Program-made: the position numbers and the translations under genes | The notes under the pieces: generated by a model | The model's input: only the letters and a program-made list of their open reading frames with translations | What the model was told of the DNA's origin: nothing | Database searches by the model: none | Origin: Sphingobacterium paludis | GTDB lineage: Bacteria; Bacteroidota; Bacteroidia; Sphingobacteriales; Sphingobacteriaceae | Assembly: GCF_004364125.1 (NCBI RefSeq) | Contig: NZ_SNZV01000004.1 | Coordinates: forward strand, 372,001 to 436,000 | DNA length: 64,000 bases | Direction of reading: 5' to 3' | Part shown: one piece after another, positions 43,658-59,188 of the stretch | How the letters are laid out: each line of letters opens with the position of its first letter | Numbering within the stretch: position 1 is the stretch's first letter

Positions 43658-43677
43658 CGTATTGTACCCTACCATTT

Positions 43678-49703: not shown

Positions 49704-50272
49704 TGACTTACGTACCAAGATTAAAAGCGAAATACGCGGAAGAAATCCGTACAGCGCTTAAAGATAAATTCCAGTATAAAAGCGTTATGCAAGTTCCTAA
49801 ACTGGAGAAAATTGTAGTGTCCCAAGGTGTGGGTGCAGCTACAGCAGACAAAAAGTTGATCGATGCTTCTATTTCGGAGCTTACAACGATCACCGGTCAG
49901 CAAGCTGTTGCAACCAAATCTAAAAAGGATATCTCGAACTTCAAATTGCGTAAAGGTATGCCTGTTGGTGCACGTGTTACACTACGCGACAACAACATGT
50001 ATGAGTTCTTAGATCGTTTGATCTCTGTATCGTTGCCTCGTATCCGTGATTTCCGCGGTATCAACGATAAAGGTTTCGACGGAAGAGGTAACTATAACCT
50101 TGGTATTACGGAGCAAATTATCTTCCCAGAAATCAACATTGACAAGATCAACAAGATTCAGGGTATGGATATTACTTTTGTAACTTCAGCAGGTAACGAT
50201 ATCGAAGCATTGGAGTTATTGAAACAATTCGGTTTACCGTTCAAAAATCAAAACACAAACAACAATGGCTAA
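49703..50272 (+). CDS. rplE: 50S ribosomal protein L5
   Basis: A 189-residue protein that binds 5S rRNA and contacts P-site t[24 protein letters not shown] and [28 protein letters not shown] are the conserved blocks. It overlaps rpsN by 8 bases. Confidence 0.98.
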
Positions 50273-50534
50273 AGAAGGATTAAAAGCACGCGAAGTAAAG
50301 CGTCAGAAATTGGTCGCTAAGTTTGCTGAGAAACGTGCCGCTTTAAAAGAGGCAGGTGATTATGCAGCTTTAGATAAATTACCAAAGAATGCTTCACCAG
50401 TACGTTTACACAACCGTTGTAAGTTAACTGGTCGTCCAAGAGGGTATATGCGTCAATTCGGTATTTCACGTGTTACATTCCGTGAGATGGCATTAGACGG
50501 CAAGATCCCGGGAGTGAAAAAAGCTTCTTGGTAA
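50265..50534 (+). CDS. rpsN: 30S ribosomal protein S14 (zinc-free long form)
   Basis: An 89-residue protein of the 30S head. It has a single Cys in [29 protein letters not shown], so it is the longer form without the CxxC zinc ribbon. Followed by a terminator-like hairpin, an unusual break inside the spc cluster. Confidence 0.97.
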
Positions 50535-50550: not shown

Positions 50551-50558
50551 TACTTTTG
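50551..50558 (+). promoter_or_regulatory. -7-like box directly upstream of the rpsN/rpsH hairpin
   Basis: TACTTTTG matches consensus; it lies immediately before the terminator stem, so any transcript begun here would open with that hairpin. Confidence 0.35.
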
Positions 50559-50595
50559 CCCGGATAAACCCGCTAAGGGTTTATCGGGTTTTTTT
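50559..50595 (+). terminator. Terminator-like hairpin between rpsN and rpsH
   Basis: CCCGGATAAACCC (50559-50571) pairs with GGGTTTATCGGG (50577-50588) with one bulged G, followed by seven Ts (50589-50595). It has full intrinsic-terminator form inside a ribosomal operon. Confidence 0.8.
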
Positions 50596-50676
50596 CGTAT
50601 TGCACAATTTATGTACAGACAACAGGTCCGGGAGTTAGGTTAGTCCAGGAAACCATTGTCATAATTTTAATATCTA

Positions 50677-51075
50677 ATGAATACAGATCCAATAGCGGAT
50701 TACCTTACACGAGTAAGGAATGCCATTAAGGCCAACCACAGGGTTGTTGAAATTCCTGCATCGAACCTTAAAAAAGAGATCACTAAAGTTCTTTTTGACA
50801 AAGGTTACATTGCTAACTACAAATTCGAAGAAAACGGTCCACAAGGATCGATCAAAGTTGCTTTGAAGTACCACCCAGTTAGCAAAATTCCGGCTATTCG
50901 CACATTGACACGTGTGAGTAAACCTGGTTTAAGAAAGTATGCAAGTGTAGGAGACATGCCTCGCGTTTTGAACGGTTTGGGTATTGCTATCTTGTCAACC
51001 TCTAAAGGTGTAATGACAGATAAAGAAGCCCGCGTACAGAATGTAGGTGGCGAAGTTTTATGTTACGTTTATTAA
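50677..51075 (+). CDS. rpsH: 30S ribosomal protein S8
   Basis: A 132-residue central-domain protein. It begins MNTDPIADYLTRVRNAIKANHRVVEIPAS and ends GGEVLCYVY. In E. coli S8 represses the spc operon; here it is the first gene after the intra-operon terminator, 142 bases from rpsN. Confidence 0.98.
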   Translation: MNTDPIADYLTRVRNAIKANHRVVEIPASNLKKEITKVLFDKGYIANYKFEENGPQGSIKVALKYHPVSKIPAIRTLTRVSKPGLRKYASVGDMPRVLNGLGIAILSTSKGVMTDKEARVQNVGGEVLCYVY

Positions 51076-52731: not shown

Positions 52732-52765
52732 GATATGGAAAGCGTCTGCGGATGCTTTCCATATC
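52732..52765 (+). other. 12-bp hairpin between rpmD and rplO
   Basis: GATATGGAAAGC (52732-52743) pairs perfectly with 52754-52765, 10-base loop, followed by CGTTTTAT. It begins 3 bases after the rpmD stop; it could be a weak terminator or a processing site. Confidence 0.6.
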
Positions 52766-59157: not shown

Positions 59158-59188
59158 AATCCCCAACCGTACAGTTGGGGATTTTTTT
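59158..59188 (+). terminator. Intrinsic terminator ending the ribosomal supercluster
   Basis: AATCCCCAAC (59158-59167) pairs with GTTGGGGATT (59174-59183), 6-base loop, seven Ts. Confidence 0.93.

Follow-up and report, generated by a model that had tools for sequence, protein, structure and literature searches.

Predicted terminator with an overlapping promoter-like box, followed by a candidate S8 leader, between rpsN and rpsH of Sphingobacterium paludis

The spc operon of Sphingobacterium paludis appears to be cut between rpsN (S14) and rpsH (S8) by an intrinsic terminator and an overlapping promoter of the sigma-ABfr type, with the distal unit under translational repression through an S8-type leader, a reading to which we give roughly three chances in four. 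From the sequence, its conservation and covariation, the match to the 16S rRNA core, and the placement of the elements, we infer that the promoter and the terminator are active, where the local transcript starts, that S8 binds, and at which step repression would act.

The S. paludis assembly (Bacteroidota; 4.78 Mb in 27 contigs) has as its closest named relatives by S14 Sphingobacterium pedocola (99%), Parapedobacter sp. SGR-10 (96%), and other Sphingobacterium. In the window, meaning the whole 64,000-nucleotide stretch that was analyzed, the ribosomal block starts with rplC, continues with the spc genes, and closes with rpsM-rplQ (gene names were assigned from the translations). A gap of 142 bases separates the end of rpsN at 50534 from the start of rpsH at 50677, and the distal genes follow in the order rpsH-rplF-rplR-rpsE-rpmD-rplO-secY. 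A first-pass annotation had described a box, TACTTTTG, a hairpin, and seven Ts in this gap, and sequence, folding, and genus-wide conservation confirm all three at 50551 to 50595. The features discussed below are as follows.

50265 to 50534, + strand: rpsN (S14), the upstream gene, from the open reading frame list; its Ser-Trp codons TCT-TGG provide the TTG of the -33 element
50528 to 50530, + strand: TTG, candidate -33 element, 20 nt 5' of the box
50551 to 50558, + strand: TACTTTTG, candidate -7 box (TAnnTTTG), present in 87/87 genus genomes
50558 to 50595, + strand: predicted intrinsic terminator, from folding and genus conservation; stem 50558-50589, T run 50589-50595
50558 to 50562 with 50585 to 50589, + strand: outer pairs of the terminator; inner stem 50564-50571 with 50577-50584
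50563, + strand: G50563, predicted transcription start (+1), from a box at -12 to -5 and the truncated fold
50618 to 50660, + strand: predicted S8-type leader; P1 50618-50622 with 50656-50660, upper stem from 50628-50629 with 50648-50649
50624 to 50627 and 50650 to 50654, + strand: leader core A50624 G50625 G50626 U50627 and A50650 A50651 A50652 C50653 C50654, corresponding to 16S 595-598 and 640-644
50677 to 51075, + strand: rpsH (S8), which opens the proposed distal unit, from the open reading frame list; start codon 16 nt 3' of the leader

For comparison within the genus, a search of 90 genomes located S14 in 87, the S. paludis genome included, and the gap after rpsN was taken from all 87 (30 loci from the S14 search and 57 fetched in addition).

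The hairpin at 50558 to 50595

Like an ordinary intrinsic terminator, the segment at 50558 to 50595 has a stable GC-rich stem and then a U-tract, and it is predicted to act as one. RNAfold gives the hairpin 13 pairs and one bulge at -19.7 kcal/mol, or 12 pairs without the terminal G-U, which bears out the 12 pairs with one bulge first described; the T run consists of seven Ts, the first of which is able to pair with G50558. The hairpin has a z of -3.3, with 1 of 200 shuffles equally stable, and the bare stem-loop alone has a z of -4.5. A pattern scan of 18 kb returned 21 terminator-like sites, including this one, versus 15.1 +/- 4.6 in shuffles; thus, the scan by itself is no proof of the hairpin. 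We accept the hairpin as real because its stem is conserved across the genus with compensatory changes.

Conservation of the hairpin had been proposed as a check in the first-pass annotation, and the stem proved to be kept genus-wide. In 82 of the 87 gaps, the local fold has the final G of the box as its first base; in 4, it is shifted by two bases in the 3' direction, and in 1 (L148, which bears a long insertion) by five. In an alignment of 40 sequences (A2, hand-chosen for diversity out of 61 distinct strings, with L148, L205, and L206 excluded earlier), 97.8% of the cells in the nine inner pairs were standard, and 8 of the 9 pairs showed two-sided changes; slid controls did not exceed 48.6%. 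The outer pairs are also kept across the genus relatives, most of which have a bulge or mismatch separating outer from inner stem near the predicted start. With L148 excluded, at least five Ts occur among the eight bases 3' of the stem in all 86 gaps, and the longest T run is at least four in 78 of the 86 hairpins. In the other eight it is only three, and these hairpins count against a purely terminating role.

Alternatively, the hairpin may be mainly a stabilizer of mRNA 5' or 3' ends, or a processing site, and no terminator. Retention of the stem in the eight species with the shorter T run speaks for this, as does a local transcript that would start on the first base of the inner stem. The longer T run in the large majority of relatives, however, and the conservation of outer pairs that a local transcript would lack both argue for termination, and we consider the stabilizer reading unlikely.

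Other searches concerned the identity of the element. A genome-wide search with the pattern TTTGCCC...GGGTTTTT gave three matches, among which the rpsN-rpsH site alone was a hairpin by eye. A known Rfam element was excluded: the 4227 covariance models of Rfam release 15, run on the window, matched neither the hairpin nor the leader and gave one unrelated weak match at 43675 (E up to 5). Two loci of the Parapedobacter sp. SGR-10 type (L003 and L148) carry a palindromic insertion of ~130 nt within the terminator hairpin and retain the outer CCC/GGG arms and the T run despite it.

The promoter-like box and its overlap with the hairpin

Together, TACTTTTG and the TTG at 50528 fit a Bacteroidota promoter, the activity and start position of which are predictions. 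As in an ordinary promoter of the primary sigma factor of this phylum (sigma-ABfr), TAnnTTTG lies ~19 nt 3' of a TTG or TTTG. In F. psychrophilum, the TAnnTTTG box is described at -12 to -5 (PMC9723704), and applying that position to TACTTTTG places the start at G50563, where the inner nine-pair hairpin begins. An additional TTTG near -33 is described for B. fragilis promoters, and the same source reports that no -33 motif was seen at those of F. johnsoniae (PMC7366714).

The box takes the form TACTTTTG in 54 of the 87 genus gaps, TAATTTTG in 25, TATTTTTG in 7, and TACATTTG in 1. Its distance from the TTG in the Ser-Trp codons of rpsN is 19 nt in 58 gaps, 20 nt in 25, and 18 nt in 4 (n = 87). 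The promoter-like box first described is thus borne out as a conserved element, present throughout the genus at 18 to 20 nt from the TTG. Outside the genus, of 63 gaps exceeding 60 nt, 16 contained TAnnTTTGC, compared with 0.59 (sd 0.78, maximum 4) in 200 shuffles, an excess that suggests that a promoter in the rpsN-rpsH gap is widespread. Four Flavobacterium loci (L051, L056, L059, and L081) have the box at the same position without the hairpin.

These data also bear on the possibility that the box is no working promoter and that rpsH is supplied solely by read-through of a leaky terminator. The TTG sits in codons and could be conserved for coding (the rpsN Ser codon is TCT in 87/87 genus genomes). 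The box itself is invariably present at a fixed spacing, however, boxes recur in the same gap of other loci far more often than in shuffles, and the four Flavobacterium loci use the same position with no hairpin at all; supply by read-through only seems distinctly unlikely to us.

Relative to an ordinary sigma-ABfr promoter or an intrinsic terminator, the site differs in that the two overlap, the final G of the -7 box being, in most relatives, also the first base of the hairpin's 5' arm. Across 464 kb of S. paludis DNA, 544 TAnnTTTG sites were counted, 4 of them with a terminator-like hairpin directly 3', and the rpsN-rpsH site was the strongest of the four. Four scrambled-motif controls had an adjoining hairpin at 3 to 6 of 355 to 467 sites, the real motif giving no more than these, and box-hairpin adjacency was therefore rejected as a common genomic architecture. 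Beyond the genus, terminator-like hairpins were found in 8 of the 63 gaps longer than 60 nt, compared with 0 to 1 in three shuffles; in one locus (L065), the box lies within such a hairpin. In four Flavobacteriaceae-type loci (L039, L060, L065, and L066), a TAnnTTTG box lies inside a different hairpin 5' of the leader, possibly an independent promoter-in-hairpin arrangement.

The overlap has consequences for the two kinds of RNA that would cross the site. A transcript started at the box had been expected to begin with the hairpin. This holds for the inner nine pairs, which fold at -13.7 kcal/mol in RNA from 50563, with GGG between hairpin and U-tract. It does not hold for the outer GCCCG/CGGGU pairs, whose 5' side is upstream of the predicted start and which are available only to RNA arriving from upstream. 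Since the promoter would start inside the 5' arm of the terminator and only read-through RNA would have the full stem, the spc operon is probably divided here into two transcription units. The conserved terminator-like hairpin and promoter-like box thus support the earlier suggestion that the operon is really two units.

The leader before rpsH

Just 5' of rpsH, a covarying element was found in 62 of 81 loci (60 by pattern and two by eye), the loci being 80 relatives found by S14 and S. paludis itself, and in a comparison of these 81 gaps it was better conserved than the terminator hairpin. The 19 loci without it comprise nine with gaps of 7 to 22 nt, six with a different Bacteroidales element, and four with neither. 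An alignment of 58 of the 62 leader-bearing loci (A1) excluded L043, L065, L067, and L069, which have long upper stems; L037 and L046 were added by eye, and the start of L002 was set by hand. In this alignment, standard pairs filled 95.4% of the cells of the ten-pair structure, compared with 32 to 53% in slid controls, and two-sided changes occurred at 8 of the 10 pairs. RNAalifold, with no structure supplied, returned the same helices, one core pair apart (U15 with A46, not A44), and the S. paludis leader folds into the same structure unaided.

A covariance model of the leader (R1) gave one strong match in the window, at 50613-50678 (E 8.6e-10), a match by construction, as the sequence is in the training set. 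In a coarse first pass against 247 genomes of the phylum, 29 were matched, once each, and all 29 matches lie directly 5' of rpsH and 3' of rpsN. They are confined to two families (f1 and f4), which we take to be Sphingobacteriaceae and Flavobacteriaceae, judging from named S14 loci. Recruitment through S14, independent of the leader, gave 28 phylum loci, of which 10 carry the leader.

The S8 binding core of 16S rRNA is described as A595-(A596-U644), (G597-C643)-U641, and the invariant A642 (PMC4176348); that U598 and A640 also belong to it is our own reading. E. coli 16S has AAGU at 595-598 and AUACU at 640-644, and the leader core corresponds to these position for position, without loop indels, in the 58-sequence alignment. 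On the 5' side, it reads A-R-G-U (A in 58, G in 55 and A in 3, G in 58, U in 58), and on the 3' side, it reads A-N-A-C-Y (A in 58, A in 56 and U in 2, A in 58, C in 57, C in 56 and U in 2). These columns and an AA 3' of P1 rank among the best-conserved positions of the leader, and the core is present in 87/87 genus gaps. Thus, the element combines a covarying structure 5' of the S8 gene with the full set expected of an S8 ribosomal leader, A595-(596-644), (G597-C643)-641, U598-A640, and the invariant A642, all at the same offsets as in helix 21. It differs from helix 21 in that the 596-644 pair is mostly G-C and not A-U (two rows of A1 have A-U, as in E. coli rRNA) and in that the upper stem is short and variable. 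Position 641 is A in 56 of 58 leaders and U in E. coli and Sphingobacterium 16S, a point against the match. A search for 16S in the S. paludis assembly gave no match; the assembly therefore seems to lack 16S, and that of relatives was used instead.

A descriptor of the core (A-R-G-U and A-N-A-C-Y with stems on both sides) marked a single site, helix 21, in each of five 16S genes (E. coli and four others, one of them, L086, an apparent contaminant). Required to have five lower and at least two upper pairs, it marked four sites on both strands of 464 kb of the S. paludis genome, the rpsH leader among them. Of the 58 leaders, 24 were recovered when three upper pairs were demanded (the strict form), and 39 and 46 by looser forms, many being missed because the upper stem is variable. 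The rpsH product retains an S-T-S tripeptide, and a tripeptide of this kind is said to stack on A642 (PMC4176348). The 16S helix 21 of L086 (genome G001, contig 130) looks gamma-proteobacterial and has A at 641, like most leaders; the contig is probably a contaminant of that genome and was counted as a 16S example only.

Collectively, these features suggest that the leader is an S8 feedback site through which S8 would repress its own production. The leader could instead serve another protein (e.g., S14 or L5) or translation in general, its likeness to the S8 site being accidental. The A at 641 is in keeping with this, as is the different conserved leader that Bacteroidales have at the same place. 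Against it, all specified S8-core positions are present and nearly all invariant, every match of the model lies directly 5' of the S8 gene, and the descriptor marks nothing but helix 21 in the five 16S genes. We judge an accidental likeness quite improbable.

Very improbable, finally, is control of read-through at 50558 to 50595 by S8 or another factor, with the hairpin attenuating the distal genes. In its favor are the classical role of S8 as repressor of spc (PMC10931766) and the proximity of an S8-like site, but that site is 3' of the terminator and made later, and the many leader-bearing loci with gaps of 61 to 77 nt lack room for both, so that the leader works without the terminator. Regulated read-through had been the other option of the first-pass annotation; it is not supported, and S8-controlled attenuation at this hairpin was rejected from the order of the elements along the RNA, since the leader at 50618 to 50660 is transcribed after the terminator decision and S8 cannot act on the terminator through it.

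At the six Bacteroidales or Rikenellaceae-type loci, the position directly 5' of rpsH is taken by a conserved hairpin of another kind (L023:3309-3364, L030:3293-3348, L049:3294-3349, L050:2318-2377, L055:3299-3354, and L070:3299-3357). Its motif in the six aligned sequences (A3) is AATCGGATATCGGGCG...CGCCGGTYC. A second type of S8 leader, with the strands exchanged, is possible: GAUA...GGU(C/U) recalls 639-642 and 597-598, but the geometry of the loop is not a clean fit and the additional base lies on the wrong strand.

Proposed regulation and relation to known systems

Feedback by S8 on the spc operon is a textbook case. In the split operon proposed here, polymerase coming from the upstream ribosomal genes would meet the terminator at 50558-50595, where upstream transcripts would end at least partly. 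A new transcript would start at G50563, inside the 5' arm of the terminator, from the TTG at 50528 and the box at 50551. Lacking the outer CCC/GGG pairs and carrying the nine-pair hairpin at its extreme 5' end, three bases from the U-tract, this local RNA should escape termination. The distal unit would carry its own leader, with 50618-50660 folding as a copy of the helix 21 S8 core. Free S8 would bind there, cover the region just 5' of the rpsH start, and block initiation of its own unit, so that S8 and the following proteins would be translated until free S8 occupies the leader. S8 is thus a probable translational repressor at rpsH.

The E. coli spc operator at rplE (uL5) shares with the leader an mRNA copy of the helix 21 core, with two base triples and a bulged A, and translational feedback by S8, as at the E. 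coli operator, would be expected likewise for the rpsH leader. The leader differs in location, lying 5' of rpsH and not at rplE, where the E. coli operator is located (PMC10931766), and in occurring in other bacterial families. It differs also in strand order, which is that of 16S; the E. coli mRNA triple A+80-(A+81-U+11) implies, by our reasoning, swapped strands (PMC4176348). Helix 21 mimicry may have arisen or relocated independently of the E. coli site, as an exact S8 core 5' of rpsH in two large families suggests. Autoregulation of the yeast S8 homologue Rps22 through a two-bulge intron structure, likened by its authors to the S8 site (PMC13232506), is a precedent for S8 mimicry outside E. 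coli.

Structured leaders 5' of ribosomal genes are described in Bacteroidia or Flavobacteria for L13, S4, S15, and S16 (Eckert and Weinberg 2020), and Table 1 of that work lists none for S8 or 5' of rpsH. In the portion available, a human-microbiome survey names ribosomal leaders for L7/L12, L20, and L10 only (PMC8040213). No Bacteroidota S8 leader was found in Rfam or in the searchable main text of open papers. According to a 2024 review, it is not known how spc is regulated in B. subtilis or other species, and phylogenetic work has brought no advance (PMC10931766). With an exact S8 core 5' of rpsH in two large families, spc regulation outside E. coli becomes directly testable.

To a bolder reading we give even odds: a two-in-one boundary, in which the start region is the 5' arm of a terminator that would act on read-through RNA only, leave local RNA immune, and insulate the unit under S8 feedback from the remaining spc genes, and a previously undescribed S8 leader family, common to Sphingobacteriaceae and Flavobacteriaceae, in which the S8 site has been transferred to rpsH and keeps the strand order of 16S. 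If true, overlapping terminator and promoter would be a compact means to split an operon.

Two further hairpins were seen in the ribosomal block. At 52732-52765, between rpmD and rplO, a perfect 15-pair hairpin with a weak T tail is a possible further boundary in the spc operon. A strong hairpin at 59158-59183, 3' of rplQ, is followed on the + strand by a T run and on the - strand by a T-rich tail that is weaker, and is likely the end of the ribosomal block.
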